Virus record (IMG/VR): IMGVR_UViG_3300032285_004238 | Location: 1-29,279 of that record | From: a virus | Strand: one strand, 5' to 3' | DNA: 29,279 nucleotides | In this document: piece by piece, positions 12,807 through 20,937 of the stretch | Layout of the letters: each line of letters opens with the position of its first letter | How positions within the stretch are numbered: the first letter of the stretch is position 1 | The notes under the pieces: model-generated | Databases searched by the model: none | What the model was told of the DNA's origin: nothing | Seen by the model: only the letters and a program-made list of their open reading frames with translations | Program-made: the position numbers and the translations under genes

Positions 12807-13155
12807 TTATACACAACACCAACTGCCACAGTATGCAGCACTTAAATCGCCTACACAAGAAGTGCAAGCAACACCCAAAGAACTACCGCCAACAAGTTTA
12901 CGTCAAGCACAAACCAACTTTTTGCTAGACAAACTGCAAGAAGAAGCAGCTGAGGTAATTCAAGCAGTTAACAAAATTCGCAGATTTGGTGAATCAAACA
13001 AACATCCTGACAGAACCACAACCAACAAACAAGACTTGGAAAACGAATTGGAAGATTTTCTTGCAATTCTCGCTGCCTTAGAATACTGCAAGTACCTTGA
13101 CTTAACACCACACCAACAAAATATCCTCCACAAAACACACAAGCTTGTTGTTTAA
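12790..13155 (+). CDS. MazG-like nucleotide pyrophosphohydrolase
   Basis: Residues 45-100 carry LLDKLQEEAAEVIQAVNKIR followed by LENELEDFLAILAALEYC. This is the EExxE ... ExxD all-alpha NTP pyrophosphatase signature (MazG/PRA-PH-like): E51, E52, E55, then E85 and D89. Such enzymes hydrolyse NTPs or (p)ppGpp-related nucleotides, and phage forms help keep host metabolism active. The N-terminal 40 residues are Pro/Thr/Gln-rich and probably disordered. Last gene of the plus operon; its stop is 1 nt from a TGACCCTAAAC repeat. Confidence 0.85.
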   Translation: MSTIPDYTQHQLPQYAALKSPTQEVQATPKELPPTSLRQAQTNFLLDKLQEEAAEVIQAVNKIRRFGESNKHPDRTTTNKQDLENELEDFLAILAALEYCKYLDLTPHQQNILHKTHKLVV

Positions 13156-13266
13156 CTGACCCTAAACTGCAACAATATGACAGTTTTATGAATTTTTGCT
13201 GCTGGAACCAATAACACAAAGCAAAATTACAGTTCATTCATGTATCGGGCAACCTATACAAAAAAC

Positions 13267-13295
13267 TTGTCAAACTATCGTGTAAGTGTTATAAT
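13267..13295 (+). promoter_or_regulatory. sigma70 promoter P1
   Basis: TTGTCA, 17-nt spacer, TATAAT. The region 13170-13390 shows no convincing gene; a hairpin TTTACA/TGTAAA near the start point and P2 follow. Confidence 0.75.
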
Positions 13296-13393
13296 AATCT
13301 ATATTTACAAAAACTGTAAAATGTATTTACAAATTCTCAAACTAAAACAAAATCACATACTAACACAAACTACCACATCGCTAAAAAATTGAC

Positions 13394-13423
13394 TTGTCAT
13401 CCATCATCCAAATATGCTATAAT
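13394..13423 (+). promoter_or_regulatory. sigma70 promoter P2 (extended -10)
   Basis: TTGTCA, 18-nt spacer, TGCTATAAT (extended -10). Transcription from about 13430 makes a leader of about 190 nt for the 13619 gene. Confidence 0.85.
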
Positions 13424-13447
13424 TTAGTATAACTTGTAGAGTTAGAG

Positions 13448-13574
13448 ACTAGGTGATAATTTTATCGTTCGCTAGAACAGATATGGTTAGAGAATATGGG
13501 GACGTCCAGCGAGGGGCCCTGTATTATCGTTAACTATCCAGTTTAGGGTCAATGATAAAATTATCACAACTAGT
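13448..13574 (+). ncRNA. highly structured leader RNA (riboswitch-like or new)
   Basis: P1: GTGATAATTTTATC (13453-13466) is a perfect 14-bp complement of 13554-13567, extended by ACTAG/CTAGT over a 2-nt bulge. It closes a three-way junction. P2 is GTTC-GCTA-GAAC (13467-13478). P3 pairs GATA and GTTA with TAAC and TATC around a TG bulge. P4 pairs AATATGGGG with CCCTGTATT (nine pairs, two wobbles), with a small apical TCC-AGCGA-GGG. The strand between P3 and P1 exposes the repeat CAGTTTAGGGTCA. It lies between promoter P2 and the 13619 gene. It matches no RNA class I can name. Confidence 0.75.
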
Positions 13575-13618
13575 CGCAAGCTTATCGACCACAACTCTGT
13601 TCTAAAACAAACTAAAAA

Positions 13619-14413
13619 ATGAAGATTACCAAACAAGATATTTATGAATTGGACTTAAAAGCGATAAATTCCATGACGGATCTGGAACTTGAAGAATTTT
13701 GCACATCCAATAAGCTGTCCCACTTTTACACCTGGTTGCTGCCACAAATGGTGGCACACTTTGGTTCATGGACACTAGCATACACAGCTGAGGGTCAAAT
13801 CGATGTTTTAGCAACTCTTAAACACAATGTTGGTACTGATCCTAGTAAACAGGCAATTTGGAAGCTTAGTAGGGTAAAACGCAGCTTGCTAATTCCCATC
13901 ATGTCGAAAGCACCAGAATACGGTACACTTACTCCATTAATCTTAATGGGATTGAAAAGAATGCAAGGAGTTACTTATAATAGTTGGAGAGCCTTAAACA
14001 ACTTGGAGTATATTTTAGAGCCACAACTATATGCTGCACTTAACCTTAATCATGACGACTTACAAGTTTGTGGCAGTTTAGGGTCGGATAGACTCTTAGA
14101 ACTACGAGAACAAGGATTAATGCAACGAACTGGAGCCAAGGCAGGTCAAATGAAAAAACCTGAGTCTACTTGGAGTTTAACAGGTATGCAAGGCACTGAG
14201 ATTGCACATCTTCCAAAACTCACACAAACAATGCTAACCCAAATATGGTTGGCACATCCTAGTCTAAGAACACCTTATATGATCTTAGACCCAAACAACT
14301 GGGATAATCTTCCCAATCCTTTAGTAACCCCTGATATTTTTAAGGCTCCTGAGCCTGAAGTAGTTCGTAAACCCAAACCAGAGCCAGTAGTAGATAAGCT
14401 ACCTTGGATGTAA
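13619..14413 (+). CDS. unknown 264-aa protein behind structured leader
   Basis: The product starts MKITKQDIYELDLKAINSMT and has a helical acidic N-terminus, a middle with KQAIWKLSRVKRSLLIPIMS and MGLKRMQGVTYNSWRALNNL, and a Pro-rich tail (PEPEVVRKPKPEPVVDKLPWM). The basic 80-130 region could contact nucleic acid. A copy of the repeat motif is inside the gene (GSLGSD). There is no strong RBS. It is followed by an HTH gene 2 nt after its stop. A replication or regulatory role is only suggested by context. Confidence 0.75.
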   Translation: MKITKQDIYELDLKAINSMTDLELEEFCTSNKLSHFYTWLLPQMVAHFGSWTLAYTAEGQIDVLATLKHNVGTDPSKQAIWKLSRVKRSLLIPIMSKAPEYGTLTPLILMGLKRMQGVTYNSWRALNNLEYILEPQLYAALNLNHDDLQVCGSLGSDRLLELREQGLMQRTGAKAGQMKKPESTWSLTGMQGTEIAHLPKLTQTMLTQIWLAHPSLRTPYMILDPNNWDNLPNPLVTPDIFKAPEPEVVRKPKPEPVVDKLPWM

Positions 14414-14415
14414 AA

Positions 14416-14769
14416 ATGAAATATACAAAAGAAATCACAGATAAATTAATTGCAGACTACAAGGCAGGTATTGCCGTTGCTACAATTGCAACGGACTTAG
14501 ATGTACCTGAACGGTCTGTGATTGCTAAATTAAGCTCTCTGGGCGTGTACACCAAGAAAAGCTATGTCAACAAGCGTGGTGAGGTACCAGTTAAAAAATC
14601 GGAGCACATCGAGCGTATTGCTGAGCTGCTCAACGTGGATGAAGAATTGTTAGAATCACTGGAAAAGGTAAACAAAACGGTTCTCAAGCTAATTGAAGCA
14701 AAATTGGCTCAGGTTGACCCTAAACTGCACCAAGTTACCACTAATTCGGAGTTATTTGCACTTAATTGA
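14416..14769 (+). CDS. HTH DNA-binding protein, paralogue A
   Basis: Residues 1-45 (MKYTKEITDKLIADYKAGIA ... VPERSVIAKLSSLGVYTKK) form a homeodomain/Myb-like helix-turn-helix: helix, G-(I/V)-xVxxIAxxL, then RSV(I/V)AKLS as recognition helix. A linker with VKK-S-E-H and a helical C-terminal LLNVDEELLESLEKVNKTVL segment follow. Three more copies of the family occur at 16079, 17054 and 20617. An upstream ATG at 14404 would add four residues. Its TGA stop is part of a TGACCCTAAAC repeat, and another copy lies inside its 3' end, so autoregulation is an attractive guess. Confidence 0.85.
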   Translation: MKYTKEITDKLIADYKAGIAVATIATDLDVPERSVIAKLSSLGVYTKKSYVNKRGEVPVKKSEHIERIAELLNVDEELLESLEKVNKTVLKLIEAKLAQVDPKLHQVTTNSELFALN

Positions 14770-14801
14770 CCCTAAACTGAGCAAATCAGCCTTATAAACA
14801 C

Positions 14802-14837
14802 AAAAGCCCACTTAAATTGCTTTAAGTGGGCTTTTTT
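14802..14837. terminator. rho-independent terminator
   Basis: GCCCACTTAAA/TTTAAGTGGGC (11 bp, loop TTGC) with an A run before and TTTTTT after; it can act in both directions. Confidence 0.95.
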
Positions 14838-14909
14838 GCGTGGGTTTTATTAACGTGTAAATTGTGTCGGCTTACTGCGGTTTAGGGTCAGACAGTCAAG
14901 AATATCCAC

Positions 14910-14939
14910 TTGACAAGGATTTGCACTGTGTGGTAAAAT
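14910..14939 (+). promoter_or_regulatory. promoter of the GGCGC family
   Basis: TTGACA, 18-nt spacer, TAAAAT followed at once by GGCGC. The transcript would begin near 14946 and meet the terminator at 14960-14996, giving an RNA of about 50 nt. Confidence 0.8.
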
Positions 14940-14959
14940 GGCGCAGGACCAGCCAAAAC

Positions 14960-14996
14960 AAAAGCCCCCAAGATTCGAGATCTTGAAGGGGCTTTT
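14960..14996. terminator. bidirectional terminator
   Basis: AAAAGCCCC pairs with GGGGCTTTT around an inner AAGAT/ATCTT stem. Read leftward it is followed by CTTTTGTTTT, so it fits the end of the long minus-strand RNA at least as well as the short plus RNA. Confidence 0.85.
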
Positions 14997-15841
14997 GAAA
15001 GCATTTGCTGTTGCAACAGCGTGGTCTTTTTTAACTCTAGCAGGATTTTTAAGATAATCAATCTACCTGACCCTAAACCGTGACTATTGCCACATACGAC
15101 CTTTGGTGATGAATCCATCGCGAAGTTGTTTAAGTGAGTGTTGCACGTTTCGGCTCTGTCACAGGCGATGCCTTATGCTGAGTATCCGTGACTAACTTGG
15201 TTACCGTTTTTTCAATTATTTTTACGACCCGCCACGATTTAGGGTCAGCACCATTATTTAAGCACCCGTAGCTAGGTCTTGTGCATATTAAGAAAGTATG
15301 GTTGCCACCGTACTTAATCGCCAGAGAGATTCCATACTCTCATTACAGTCACTAAAGTCTGCTCTTGGTTAGAAGATAGCTGTATTTAGTTAAGGTGTTC
15401 TTTCACCTCGAGATTCCTTTATAATGTTATCTCGAAACCAGTTTCTAGTTTTTAACTAACTCATAGCGGAGTCGGCATGGGATATAGGCGGAACATGCTG
15501 CCTAGTACTACTCATTACCTAACACCAGCAAGTGGTACACGCTAGGGGTTTCGTCCTGACCCTAAGGTACAGCAGGTTATGAGTATTGAAGTCTCAGTGA
15601 CCGTGCTGTGAAGTCTTGGGTTTCGCACAACTTTCATGTGCTCATCAGAGGGTTAGGGTGGGCTGTAACTTAACGCATTCAGTCACAATTAATAACTTAT
15701 CCAGATACGCATAGAGCTGGTGTTGGTTAACCCATATTCGTTTGGGGCTGTGGCTCAGAACTTTCCCACAATTAAGACGTATCTCCAAATGAGCTTGCTA
15801 TATGTTTTATGCTCTGAAGGCTGCTGTCACCCTATATTTCA
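14997..15841 (-). ncRNA. candidate large structured non-coding RNA
   Basis: No credible gene exists between 15081 and 16078. On the minus strand a promoter (15848-15876) and a terminator (14960-14996) bracket about 0.85 kb. Helices found by eye: 15703-15709 with 15778-15784; a long-range 9-bp helix AACACCAGC (15716-15724) with 15521-15529; hairpins at 15750-15769, 15393-15408, 15324-15341 and 15294-15315; TCGAGAT/ATCTCGA at 15408-15414 and 15429-15435; and a 13-bp helix (one wobble) of 15235-15247 with 15068-15080. A hammerhead-like core lies at 15618-15650. Size, setting and folding recall GOLLD/ROOL-type phage RNAs, but membership is not shown. Confidence 0.6.
15555..15653 (-). ncRNA. hammerhead-ribozyme-like motif
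   Basis: The minus strand reads CTGATGA, stem II GCACA-(7 nt)-TGTGC, then GAAA, exactly the catalytic half of a hammerhead. Stem III can form from ACCC(AAG) with (CTT)GGGT, extended by ACAGCA/TGCTGT. It ends in GTC, which would be cleaved between positions 15558 and 15557. Stem I has only three clear pairs next to the core (AGG/CCT), the weak point. The core is very unlikely by chance; activity is unproven. Confidence 0.55.
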
Positions 15842-15847
15842 ATAATA

Positions 15848-15876
15848 ATTATACAGTTTTTAAACTATACTTTCAA
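15848..15876 (-). promoter_or_regulatory. sigma70 promoter of the candidate ncRNA
   Basis: Minus strand: TTGAAA, 17-nt spacer, TGTATAATTAT. No gene lies downstream for more than 1 kb, so the product should be non-coding. Confidence 0.8.
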
Positions 15877-16018
15877 GTAAAAAATTAGACACTCGTTGCA
15901 ACTAGACTACTTTACTTTTGAGACTACTTTAAATTTATGAGTTTGAGTAAATGTTCATTTGCCTGCGGGCACCAATTGCTTGGTATTCATTAAGCCCTTC
16001 CCGACTGTCTAAGATATA

Positions 16019-16047
16019 ATTATACAGAATTTGGGGAAGAAGATCAA
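16019..16047 (-). promoter_or_regulatory. second leftward promoter upstream of the ncRNA
   Basis: Minus strand: TTGATC, 17-nt spacer, CTGTATAATTATATCTT. Nearly the same -10 region occurs at 16426-16454. Its transcript would cross 15880-16010, which has no gene but carries AGACTACTTT twice (15904, 15921) and an ACCAA-GCAA-TTGGT tetraloop hairpin. Confidence 0.75.
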
Positions 16048-16078
16048 GTTAAAATTTCTTGACCCTCAACCAACACAA

Positions 16079-16384
16079 TTACTGCAAGTTTTGGAGAATT
16101 GCTTCCAATACTTCGTGGTTGGCTTTTTCCAAGCTATCAAATGCTTCTGGGCTAGCTGAGCACAGCGAGGCAATGCGGTCAACCAATTCAGATTTTTTCA
16201 CACGAGTTGCACCTGTGGTCTTGGATTTAGCTGTGTAAACTCCCTCACGAGAGAGTTTTGCCACTACTGAACGAGTGGTTTTGCCGAACATTTGAGCCAA
16301 TGCTTCAACAGTAGCGCCAGCTTTATAGTTGGCAACAAGCTGAGCAGTTTGCTCAGGGGTATAGTTCACGGGTTTGTCAGTCAT
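16079..16384 (-). CDS. HTH DNA-binding protein, paralogue B
   Basis: Start MTDKPVNYTPEQTAQLVANY is preferred because AAAGGA lies 6 nt upstream; earlier ATGs at 16387 and 16399 exist. The N-terminal NYTPEQTAQLVANYKAGATV-EALA, then TTRSVVAKLSREGVYTAKS, is the HTH shared with paralogues A, C and D. The C-terminal domain (VKKSELVDRIASLCSASPEA ... SLEKANHEVLEAIL) also matches. It is probably a small dimeric regulator or nucleoid-type protein of the phage. Promoter at 16426-16454. Confidence 0.88.
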   Translation of the reverse strand: MTDKPVNYTPEQTAQLVANYKAGATVEALAQMFGKTTRSVVAKLSREGVYTAKSKTTGATRVKKSELVDRIASLCSASPEAFDSLEKANHEVLEAILQNLQ

Positions 16385-16425
16385 CATATGTCCTTTCAAA
16401 TGGTTTCTGCGCTGTTAAAGATATA

Positions 16426-16454
16426 ATTATACAGTTAAAATGGAACATCGTCAA
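16426..16454 (-). promoter_or_regulatory. sigma70 promoter of HTH paralogue B
   Basis: Minus strand: TTGACG, 17-nt spacer, TATAAT. It lies over the 3' end of the 16435-16569 gene. Confidence 0.88.
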
Positions 16455-16569
16455 ATTCAAAAAATTCGGGGTGATCATTGGTAACTATGAAAATTTCCGA
16501 TAGTTCTGAGCCAGCAAATTCTTGATAGTAATCTTCCTGAATTTGTGCATAAAATTCTTGTTCTGTCAT
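16435..16569 (-). CDS. 44-aa acidic protein
   Basis: A short complete ORF (MTEQEFYAQIQEDYYQEFAG ... NDHPEFFEFDDVPF) with AAAGG 7 nt before the ATG and its own promoter at 16599-16627. Over a quarter of its residues are Asp or Glu, so DNA mimicry or an adaptor role is possible but unproven. Its last codons contain the promoter of the HTH gene downstream. Confidence 0.7.
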   Translation of the reverse strand: MTEQEFYAQIQEDYYQEFAGSELSEIFIVTNDHPEFFEFDDVPF

Positions 16570-16598
16570 CTCAGAGCCTTTCTTGATTTCATAAAGAA

Positions 16599-16627
16599 AT
16601 TATAAAACTTTTTGAGATTTCGACCAA
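16599..16627 (-). promoter_or_regulatory. promoter of the 44-aa gene
   Basis: Minus strand: TTGGTC, 17-nt spacer, TATAAT. Confidence 0.7.
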
Positions 16628-16668
16628 GTGAAAATTTTCACACTTACGGTCCGTGGCTGAAAATACAC

Positions 16669-16698
16669 TTGACAAAACTAGTTTTCGCACTGTATAAT
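16669..16698 (+). promoter_or_regulatory. GGCGC-family promoter U1
   Basis: TTGACA, 18-nt spacer, TATAAT, then GGGCGCGC. Divergent from 16599-16627. The transcript would enter a repeat-rich region (16714-16929) that has no gene; CACGCTTAAGCGTG at about 16753 is a perfect palindrome. Confidence 0.85.
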
Positions 16699-16713
16699 GG
16701 GCGCGCGGCCAGC

Positions 16714-16929
16714 TCAAGGTTTTGCACTTGTCAAGGTTTTGCACTGGCGCAGCACGCTTAAGCGTGTGGAGCTTGTGGTCACAATTTGAACAATGCAGTC
16801 ACAATTTGAACCCTGCAGTTCAACATAATTATGCATTTTTAATTATAAGCAAGAATCGTGCCAGGTGCCGTGGCGCAAGAATCGTGCCAACTTTATAGAC
16901 CTGTGAGTAAAGCTCATGGGGCTGTGAGT
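16714..16929. repeat. four consecutive direct-repeat doublets
   Basis: TCAAGGTTTTGCACT occurs at 16714 and 16731; GTCACAATTTGAAC at 16778 and 16798; GCAAGAATCGTGCCA at 16849 and 16875; CTGTGAGT at 16901 and 16922. Each word is present exactly twice, 17-26 nt apart, and the words differ from one another. No gene is present. It could be a row of regulator sites, an origin with mixed iterons, or traces of local duplication. Confidence 0.8.
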
Positions 16930-16938
16930 TTATTTCGC

Positions 16939-16968
16939 TTGACACGGGTAAAAATTATATGTTATAAT
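16939..16968 (+). promoter_or_regulatory. GGCGC-family promoter U2 with palindromic -10
   Basis: TTGACA, 18-nt spacer, TATAAT, then TTTGGCGCC. The palindrome AAAATTATA-TGT-TATAATTTT (16951-16971) covers the -10. A perfect hairpin GCGAAGTGAG/CTCACTTCGC (16979-17000) follows immediately. Confidence 0.85.
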
Positions 16969-17011
16969 TTTGGCGCCCGCGAAGTGAGTGCTCACTTCGC
17001 TTGCTGATAAT

Positions 17012-17036
17012 AAAAAGCCGATTATAAATAATCGGC
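17012..17036 (-). terminator. terminator of the 17973-17054 operon
   Basis: On the minus strand GCCGATTAT/ATAATCGGC (9 bp, 2-nt centre) is followed by TTTTTATTAT. Confidence 0.85.
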
Positions 17037-17053
17037 ATATAATCATTATCTGA

Positions 17054-17374
17054 TTATATCGGTTTTGAATTTGCTAATGCTTCGAAAATCGCTTTTAATG
17101 CGTTTTTATTAGCTTTAGTTAATGATTCAATATCATTTTCAGGTAATCTCAAAATAGCGCCAATAGCATCGGCATGAGTATCTTTTTTAATTACCGATTC
17201 TCCGTTTTTGGTTTTATATTCTTTGCGAATATAAACCTTTTCACGCGATAATTTAGCGACAATACTGCGAACAGTTTTACCGAGATTATCTGCGATAATC
17301 TCAACGGATACTCCGTTTTGATAATCGGAAACCATTTTCATGGTTTGCTCAGGGGTATAATTAATGTTTTTCAT
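17054..17374 (-). CDS. HTH DNA-binding protein, paralogue C
   Basis: This 106-residue member of the family (MKNINYTPEQTMKMVSDYQN ... TVRSIVAKLSREKVYIRKE) is closest to paralogue D at 20617, sharing NYTPEQT, LGKTVRS(I/V)VAKLSREKVY, KKDTHAD and ESLTKAN. Its DNA is clearly more AT-rich than that of D and contains the inverted GAGATTATC/GATAATCTC at 17282-17302. Third gene of a minus operon with a membrane protein and a SprT-like protein. Confidence 0.88.
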   Translation of the reverse strand: MKNINYTPEQTMKMVSDYQNGVSVEIIADNLGKTVRSIVAKLSREKVYIRKEYKTKNGESVIKKDTHADAIGAILRLPENDIESLTKANKNALKAIFEALANSKPI

Positions 17375-17386
17375 TTATTTTCTCCT

Positions 17387-17599
17387 TTAAAATGAATTGT
17401 ATAAACCAAGGATATTAGCCAAAAAGAATGTACCATTAAGGGTAATTAATGATTTATCTTTTCGATAATATCCAACTATTAACCAAGATAATGATCCTAT
17501 AATAAAGAAACAATATCCCATAAAGAATAATTGACTGGCAACAATAAAAGCACCGATAATGCTAGATAATGTGCCAACCCAAGAAATTTTATTAATCAT
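17387..17599 (-). CDS. small polytopic membrane protein
   Basis: The 70 residues are mostly hydrophobic: MINKISWVGTLSSIIGAFIV, then LFFMGYCFFIIGSLSWLIVGYY, and a last helix with TFFLANILGLYNSF. Three transmembrane segments are likely, with the YYRKDK loop on the cytoplasmic side. It resembles small phage membrane proteins of unknown role, remotely PnuC-like in style. Its ATG overlaps the upstream stop by 4 nt. Confidence 0.75.
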   Translation of the reverse strand: MINKISWVGTLSSIIGAFIVASQLFFMGYCFFIIGSLSWLIVGYYRKDKSLITLNGTFFLANILGLYNSF

Positions 17600-17973
17600 C
17601 GTATAATTTCCATTGAATGATATTTATCGGGAGATAATCCATAGTTAATCATTATCTCGCACCAGTTTTTACCATGACCACATTTTGCTTCTGATAATCC
17701 GAAAAGATTATAATCGGCTTGGTGGATTATCTCATGTGGTAATATAACTTTAGTCATATTATGTGCATAATCAGGAGAATATATAAAGAATTTATATCCT
17801 AATTCTACAATATTAGAATCTTGATGACATAATCCTGCATTACGCCACAGATAACCATTTAATTCTATAATCGGTGGATTATAGCGAGTTAATCGGGGAT
17901 ATAATTCGCAAAGATTATCCCAAATAATCAATGTCTGATTATTTAAAATATTTAAAAGCTTTTTTCTGTCCAT
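17596..17973 (-). CDS. SprT-like zinc metalloprotease
   Basis: The 125 residues contain ILPHEIIHQADYNLFG with HExxH at 80-84, then a third ligand in CGHGKNWCEIM (about H100) and the family-typical hydrophobic Y-G-L-x-P end. This matches SprT/Spartan-like peptidases, which in eukaryotes degrade DNA-protein crosslinks. In phages the substrate is unknown. The TATAAT of its promoter ends 7 nt before the ATG, implying a nearly leaderless mRNA. Confidence 0.85.
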   Translation of the reverse strand: MDRKKLLNILNNQTLIIWDNLCELYPRLTRYNPPIIELNGYLWRNAGLCHQDSNIVELGYKFFIYSPDYAHNMTKVILPHEIIHQADYNLFGLSEAKCGHGKNWCEIMINYGLSPDKYHSMEIIR

Positions 17974-17980
17974 GTCCTAC

Positions 17981-18008
17981 ATTATACAGATTTGACCAGA
18001 CCTGACAA
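17981..18008 (-). promoter_or_regulatory. promoter giving a near-leaderless mRNA
   Basis: Minus strand: TTGTCA, 16-nt spacer, TATAAT, then only 7 nt to the ATG of the SprT-like gene. Confidence 0.8.
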
Positions 18009-20616: not shown

Positions 20617-20937
20617 TTACAAGGTCTTTTCAGCCTTGATAAAATCGGCAATCTTTGCCAATGCTACCTTGTTAGCCTTAGTCAGGCTTTCGGTATCAGC
20701 TTCGGTTAAGCCTAGCATCTCGCCAATAAAATCAGCGTGAGTATCTTTTTTAATCGGTGTTTCACCCGATTTTGTTTTGTATGCTTTAGCAACATAAACC
20801 TTTTCGCGCGATAGCTTCGCAACAACTGAACGCACAGTTTTACCCAATGCTTCAGCGATAGCGTCAACTGTCATACCGCCTTGGTAGTCGGCAACCATGC
20901 GAGCAGTTTGCTCAGGGGTGTAATTTACTGTTTTCAT
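20617..20937 (-). CDS. HTH DNA-binding protein, paralogue D
   Basis: The 106-residue product (MKTVNYTPEQTARMVADYQG ... TVRSVVAKLSREKVYVAKA) shares the HTH and C-terminal helical domain with paralogues A-C, closest to C. AAGGAGAG before the ATG is a good ribosome-binding site. Its promoter (20957-20985) lies over the 3' end of the upstream 31-aa gene, the same layout as paralogue B. Confidence 0.9.
   Translation of the reverse strand: MKTVNYTPEQTARMVADYQGGMTVDAIAEALGKTVRSVVAKLSREKVYVAKAYKTKSGETPIKKDTHADFIGEMLGLTEADTESLTKANKVALAKIADFIKAEKTL

Follow-up and report, generated by a model that had tools for sequence, protein, structure and literature searches.

A large conserved RNA with a predicted type I hammerhead ribozyme in phages that look T5-like

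Several described systems come close to the RNA considered here. Type I hammerhead ribozymes are known in phages, as the accessible parts of two reports state (PMC3088659, PMC6155905), and the consensus given in the first of these is C3 U4 G5 A6 N7 G8 A9, G12 A13 A14 A15, U16 and H17. The portions of PMC12286853 available to us describe GOLLD as a large phage RNA that sometimes holds phage tRNAs in a linker, and ROOL as a large folded phage RNA often found near tRNA islands. Theta ribozymes, according to the accessible text of PMC10879173, are self-cleaving, adjoin phage tRNAs and cut at tRNA 3' ends. In addition, phage T5 has RNAX (L159 22849-23567), which is 719 nt long, is annotated as a 'stable RNA with unknown functions', adjoins a tRNA-Arg and has, close to the 5' end, a fold that resembles a tRNA (38.3 bits with the Rfam tRNA model).

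We analysed a stretch of 29,279 nt, referred to as a whole as the window, from the IMG/VR virus record IMGVR_UViG_3300032285_004238 (positions 1 to 29,279). An earlier reading made from the sequence alone (the sequence-only reading) had proposed a large folded phage RNA in a coding-free minus-strand unit at 14960-15876, set between a promoter and a terminator, and had asked whether it was GOLLD, ROOL or something new. Both the promoter and the terminator were found, and no ORF is kept whole in relatives (Table 1). As to identity, neither the GOLLD model (RF02032) nor the ROOL model (RF03087) matched any of six records at E<=10, in a scan with no positive control, the control genomes also falling below the cut-off. 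Rfam scans of the window together with the loci of 22 relatives gave no GOLLD or ROOL match, and no Rfam family reached its gathering score in the window (the scan at E<=10 covered the window only). GOLLD, ROOL and other Rfam families were thus rejected as its identity for want of a match.

GOLLD is similar in kind only, both being large phage RNAs able to carry a tRNA; unlike GOLLD, the present RNA holds a hammerhead, and its most conserved part is a 5' module, whereas that of GOLLD is the 3' region. With ROOL it shares the character of a large folded phage RNA but not a model match. Like phage and other prokaryotic type I hammerheads, the ribozyme has the core, the triplet, three stems with stem I open, and an association with phages. 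It differs in a stem III of 56-65 nt with a hairpin of its own, in lying inside a large conserved RNA and in its frequent position 3' of a tRNA-Glu. Like theta ribozymes, it belongs to a self-cleaving class found next to phage tRNAs (cleavage being predicted here), but theta ribozymes have an HDV-like fold and cut within 5 nt of the tRNA 3' end, whereas here a hammerhead would cut about 100 nt downstream. T5 RNAX is likewise a large phage RNA with a tRNA-like 5' fold and a tRNA neighbour; it showed no hammerhead by scan and no significant match to our module A model, hammerhead model or family profile. Homology to T5 RNAX or to Vibrio phage D254 was rejected, none being significant in the parts scanned (24 of 122 kb of T5 and 100 of 117 kb of D254).

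So far as the search listings show, the RNA family itself and its union of hammerhead, near-invariant junction module and tRNA-Glu are new in the literature searched; no paper on such an RNA was found, with thin coverage of subscription papers, and an earlier sighting is possible. We consider it probable that the locus specifies a modular noncoding RNA, large and structured, which belongs to T5-like phages and matures through its own hammerhead. The phage looks T5-like: its terminase shares 50% identity with the terminase of Vibrio phage D254, whose 117-kb genome has a tRNA-rich region, as T5 has.

Table 1. Features of the RNA locus and its flanks, in positions of the window
Feature	Positions	Strand	Basis or detail
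D5-like DNA-binding protein gene, 106 aa, upstream of RNA	16079..16399	-	ORF and PHROG match
Upstream promoter P1, TTGATC-17-TATAAT	16019..16047	-	motif scan; recurs in relatives
Conserved leader of P1, closing helix AGACAGUC/GAGUGUCU	15887..16010	-	strands picked by eye
Promoter P2, TTGAAA-17-TATAAT	15848..15876	-	11/12 consensus positions
Large RNA from promoter P2	14960..15841	-	predicted start ~15841; length roughly 900 nt
Module A, three-way junction with 3-bp pseudoknot	15745..15832	-	hand-drawn model
Module B, second three-way junction	15660..15733	-	covariation and RNAalifold
Site equivalent to tRNA-Glu of relatives	15651..15660	-	placed by L023, L024, L026; no tRNA in window
Type I hammerhead ribozyme (predicted)	15555..15651	-	stem I CCU 15651-15649 with AGG 15557-15555
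Hammerhead core strand CUGAUGA	15642..15648	-	strict scan
Hammerhead stem II and loop, GCACA-UGAAAGU-UGUGC	15625..15641	-	covariation
Hammerhead GAAA and stem III	15559..15624	-	GAAA 15624-15621; ACCC 15621-15618 with GGGU 15562-15559
GUC triplet and predicted cut	15557..15560	-	GUC 15560-15558; predicted cut 15558/15557
3' structured domain	14998..15557	-	long-range helix 15246-15237/15078-15069
Intrinsic terminator of large RNA	14960..14997	-	scan; conserved in relatives
Terminator-like hairpin between RNA 3' end and convergent gene	14802..14835	.	scanned on - strand
Convergent gene, 121 aa, matching same PHROG families as upstream gene	14404..14769	+	ORF and PHROG match

Homologues were fetched through the neighbouring D5-like protein, independently of the RNA sequence, which gave 35 loci in virus contigs (L017/L018, L020/L021, L026/L028 and L029/L030 being probable duplicates). 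Against these loci the RNA region gave long syntenic blastn matches, at about 70-89% identity in close copies and in broken blocks in others; the large RNA family is common to dozens of related virus contigs. The layout is repeated as well, with the D5-like gene, P1, P2, the RNA and its terminator in this order, to which many loci add a second terminator and a convergent gene. In relatives, P1 lies 53-73 nt past the stop of the D5-like gene and P2 about 170-200 nt further. We excised 26 copies from P2 onward for structural comparison; they span 644-1194 nt, some being shortened by contig ends and some having 3' ends placed by hand where a terminator was not found. One 100-kb contig (IMGVR_UViG_3300043436_004120) carries two differing copies of the RNA, L022 and L177.

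The signals that bound the unit are conserved with it. A TTGA hexamer stands exactly 17 nt 5' of the P2 TATAAT in 20 of 20 aligned copies, the window counted in and the TATAAT itself having been chosen by hand as the end point, and terminator stems in relatives are altered in sequence with their pairing retained. Across 13000-18000 we counted 31 promoter-like sites against 16.7 by chance, above expectation throughout, and 10 terminator-like sites against 3.3; because such sites exceed chance anywhere in this region, conservation is a stronger argument than the presence of a motif. The transcription unit may extend upstream, with P1 and its conserved leader preceding the P2 unit. Over 20 sequences the helix closing this leader is paired in 143 of 160 cells, where replacements of A-U by C-G and of G-C by A-U are seen, and the segment between the two promoters looks like a further structured domain.

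Conserved ORFs in homologous regions, which the sequence-only reading had named as evidence against an RNA, were looked for and not found. The sole ORF of at least 60 aa in the window that overlaps the unit (14888-15118, 76 aa) gave tblastn fragments in 16 loci, as expected from DNA conservation, none of which spans all 76 residues; in several loci the fragments are split over two frames or interrupted by stops. Between the window and 12 relatives, 31 of 170 indels in the 3' half are multiples of three, less than one third. With no ORF conserved in full and indels that do not come in threes, we rejected a protein-coding gene at this unit.

Among the matches listed from 50,697 records of named phages, no full relative was found, and in two of the searches those listed (20 of 105 and 20 of 228 records) are confined to the tRNA-Glu part. 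In the freshwater Limnohabitans phage DC31, an unannotated stretch (L206 3001-3122) matches the L034-type RNA over 122 nt (E 1e-6), possibly a distant relative in a cultured phage; no hammerhead was seen in it, and ARAGORN finds no tRNA there. The sole hammerhead model match in DC31 was weak (15.6 bits, E 0.003); it fell at a different place, on the opposite strand and across annotated genes, and was taken as chance. This distant match and the guess of the sequence-only reading are the sole hints that the window may come from fresh water.

The proposal of a large folded RNA was borne out by conserved structure with compensating base-pair changes. Folding energy was dropped as proof of structure, since the plus strand was equally low (z -2.5, against -2.3 for the minus strand; 20 shuffles each). 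RNAalifold drew 21 helices from the 26 copies, and in 14 of these 80% or more of the cells pair and compensation is seen in one pair or more, a count made by hand with one helix of mean probability 0.26 omitted. For a phylogeny-aware null, substitutions were replayed on the tree at random columns in 30 null alignments. Against these the 26 copies gave nine column pairs at E<=0.5, seven of them standard pairs. Absence of covariation had been named as a reason to give up the RNA; five standard pairs, located in module B and in hammerhead stem II, exceed every pair of the 30 null alignments.

Relatives did not uphold the 9-bp long-range pairing seen by eye in the sequence-only reading (15716-15724 with 15521-15529). 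Its nine pairs all form in the window, yet 13 close relatives keep 7-9 of them without a compensating double change and 12 distant ones keep 0-6. A local alternative (15720-15717/15704-15701) is paired in 101 of 104 cells, with compensations. In the 3' half, the 13 close copies show compensatory helices, for example 15341-15337/15328-15324, 15182-15180/15156-15154 and 15093-15089/15084-15080.

A short repeat, GACCCTAA, was also observed. Counting both strands it occurs 12 times in the window, nine of them within 13157-15565, and one copy is the cleavage strand of the hammerhead. Its density is 4.1 per 10 kb in the window, against 0.25 expected, and 4.4-6.4 in seven of the eight relatives tested; the T5 and D254 pieces have 0-0.4 per 10 kb. 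It could mark a site for a protein or be repeated for structural reasons.

The first ~90 nt, termed module A, form the most conserved part of the large RNA, with junction strands GGGU-GAC..GUC-UUAAUU-GUGG..CCAC-A-GCCC and a pseudoknot that is CAG/CUG in the window and CGG/CCG in most relatives. Our 14-pair model, pseudoknot included, is paired in 588 of 588 cells across 42 distinct copies, and the inner pseudoknot pairs change from G-C to A-U in three sequences and in one. Under the phylogeny-aware null none of the 14 pairs is significant, because most of them never vary; two pairs in the variable hairpin are (columns 14/50 and 16/49). Pair types are no more numerous than in shuffles (117/500), and RNAalifold draws a closing helix that differs from the hand-drawn model. 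The alignment took 42 of 49 copies, leaving out L054 and L064, which have no start motif, and L015, L172, L177, L194 and L202, which are identical to retained rows. The module A pattern was found in 60 stretches of virus contigs, and the exact pattern had no match in 84,980 bacterial and archaeal genomes.

Module B resembles module A to the eye and is possibly a diverged copy of it. It scores 16.2 bits against the module A model (E 0.07, the E-values of the models built here being rough); since a rival match of 16.1 bits falls inside a gene of the window, a shared origin is only suggested. In L027 the module A model finds a single junction (31.6 bits).

Downstream of these modules lies a segment that is, judged by its sequence, a complete type I hammerhead with cleavage predicted. 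The sequence-only reading had listed hammerheads only among the Rfam models to be scanned; the core and all stems are complete here, while the Rfam models stay below the gathering score. Indeed, the core was found through a weak match to Hammerhead_3 (15.5 bits against a gathering score of 48.5). It fits the published consensus C3UGANGA9, G12AAA15, U16 H17 (PMC3088659, in its accessible part). The three helices meet at the core, with stem I open and stems II and III closed. Stem III is unusually long, 62 nt across in the window with a further hairpin, and spans 56-65 nt in 42 aligned copies; in these, 35 have U and 7 have C at N7, and the triplet reads GUC in 38 and GUA in 4. These 42 distinct hammerheads are 50-91% identical to the window (median 64) with the core intact, many of the 47 rows collected having been retained for fitting the core. 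Those left out of the alignment were L054, which is close to L064, and L073, L111, L130 and L131, which are other-looking RNAs. As to a possible tertiary contact between stem I and loop II, loop II opens with UGNAA in all 42 copies and stem I is followed by GAAA in 29 of them, some rows having been pattern-selected for these.

Compensating changes occur in all three stems of the 42 sequences. Stem II has U-A/A-U/C-G and G-C/C-G/U-A, stem I has C-G/U-A and U-A/A-U, and stem III has several. Cells altered on both sides numbered 95 against 32.2 in shuffles, and the covariation score was 0.374 against 0.157, with 0 of 500 shuffles as high and slid controls at 0.040-0.126; the number of pair types was not above shuffles (353/500). 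Under the phylogeny-aware null, four of 17 pairs reached E<0.05, and no null pair came up to two of the stem II pairs. The strict scan found no complete hammerhead in 60 dinucleotide shuffles of the window and was positive in 27 of the 35 protein-fetched loci, the four likely duplicate pairs among them. Of the eight scan-negative loci, L007, L012, L019 and L023 end before or inside the region, L025 and L032 show a hammerhead by eye, L031 shows one by model, and L036 gave none.

Of the 46 module A copies that are long enough to judge, the strict scan gives a hammerhead in 33; in seven more, which it missed, one is seen by eye (L025, L032, L161, L165, L187, L191 and L203), and six have none. Module A is absent by pattern in the hammerhead-bearing L004, L016 and L017/L018, so neither part is indispensable. 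Stem II in L187, L191 and L203 is, by eye, swapped for a much longer domain with the core and stems I and III kept; the hammerhead model gave 53 bits for L191, a weak 20 bits for L187 and a partial 19 bits for L203. The hammerhead-free RNAs continue from module A into other 3' parts and fall by eye into two groups (L184, L193, L199 and L202; L186 and L204).

The Rfam type I hammerhead model found nothing in six records, and as a control Hammerhead_1 found one of six phage contigs with short-stem-III hammerheads, none over the cut-off. We also noted that type I hammerheads are many in phage contigs, the pattern scan having yielded at least 119 stretches. Another group of phages (L045, L047, L049-L053, L060, L062, L067-L069, L076, L077 and others) carries type I hammerheads whose stem III is short; each is set after a promoter-like sequence and before a small ORF begins, which makes it a candidate for a ribozyme in a 5' leader. 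L111, L130 and L131 hold long-stem-III hammerheads in long stretches of different sequence, and L111 has a tRNA-Glu 11 nt 5' of the hammerhead core.

Energy folding speaks against the hammerhead in the window RNA and bears on an alternative that we think unlikely, namely that the large RNA works uncut, as a scaffold, a sponge or an oligomeric particle like those of GOLLD and ROOL, with a hammerhead that is slow, blocked or secondary. In the fold of the full-length window RNA, stem II forms in full (5/5 pairs, mean probability 0.92), and stems I (0/3, 0.0) and III (0/4, 0.04) do not. The isolated segment prefers a competing fold of CCUAACCCU with AGGGUCAGG, in which the cleavage strand pairs with ACCCU, and UUAGGGUC can pair with GACCCUAA elsewhere in the RNA. 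L017 folded alone has the whole hammerhead as its lowest-energy structure, the sole complete fold among three tested; L026 alone forms stems II and III and not stem I. Stem I of the window has only 3 bp. Energy methods predict large RNAs poorly, and a short stem I is usually stabilised by tertiary contacts; for these reasons we weighed covariation above the energy fold. The six hammerhead-free copies of 46 are also in keeping with an RNA that works uncut, as are the cages that GOLLD and ROOL form according to the accessible portions of PMC12286853. Against it, the core and all stems are retained with compensating changes, and in an element that did no catalysis the core would not be expected to last.

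The tRNA found in relatives raises a second alternative, which we regard as decidedly improbable: that the hammerhead is a maturation device for tRNA-Glu and tRNA-free copies are relics. A tRNA lies downstream of module A in 18 of 49 distinct copies and is tRNA-Glu in all 18; in L023, L024 and L026, CUGAUGA begins 5 nt past its end, and the theta ribozymes found in gut phages cleave where a tRNA ends on its 3' side (PMC10879173). The predicted cut, however, lies ~100 nt 3' of the tRNA, and 22 of the 33 strictly scored hammerhead copies have no tRNA and nevertheless keep the ribozyme.

The neighbouring genes encode related small proteins. Two PHROG families are matched by the products of both the upstream and the convergent gene, one named 'transcriptional regulator, D5-like' (E 1.6e-8 for the former, 1.7e-4 for the latter) and one 'DNA binding protein'; D5 is a T5 protein. 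Four similar D5-like small proteins were seen by eye in the window, two of them profile-tested, the other two being encoded at 17054-17374 and 20617-20937. That the RNA is a cis-acting or antisense element controlling the convergent D5-like gene or the upstream one is very improbable, for although its position between two D5-like genes recurs, a second terminator-like hairpin precedes the convergent gene in the window and in ten relatives (L002, L003, L005, L006, L009, L010, L011, L013, L015 and L016), and 3-4 kb separate the hammerhead from the matched gene in L033-L035.

We return to the reading we favour, that of a modular noncoding RNA maturing through its own hammerhead. Conservation, compensated structure, the intact ribozyme consensus and the placement of the tRNA are observed; around them we infer transcription, self-cleavage, the fate of the pieces and any function. 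The transcript would begin at P2 (or P1) and stop at the terminator. Modules A and B would fold first, as three-way junctions, and the type I hammerhead next, and cleavage after GUC would then leave two pieces, a 5' one of ~284 nt that ends in a 2',3'-cyclic phosphate and a 3' one of ~600 nt that starts with a 5' hydroxyl. The former would hold modules A and B, and the latter would be a separately closed domain with the long-range helix of Table 1. In relatives the tRNA-Glu would be on the 5' piece, so that the cut would part modules and tRNA from the 3' RNA, and the tRNA would then be freed by RNase P and tRNA 3' processing. The pieces would act as stable RNAs during infection, and by analogy they are most likely stable RNAs of infection like the annotated T5 RNAX. 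Since the competing fold hides the cleavage strand, regulated cleavage is possible.

A bolder form of this reading, which we put forward tentatively and hold to be doubtful, is a new class of giant phage RNA, a self-processing machine of several pieces with near-invariant three-way junctions and a pseudoknot. In it tRNA-Glu would serve as bait or cargo, and the hammerhead would cleave the chain after folding. Its pieces would assemble or act apart, and GACCCUAA and UUAGGGUC would perhaps compete, as a switch, for the cleavage site.

In conclusion, large phage RNAs such as GOLLD and ROOL and prokaryotic hammerheads, both without a settled function, are joined here in one molecule. The hammerheads described are examples missed by the Rfam type I model in the records tested, and the patterns and models of module A and of the hammerhead can be used for finding further members. 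Self-cleavage, as predicted for this RNA, is a possible maturation mechanism for giant phage RNAs.
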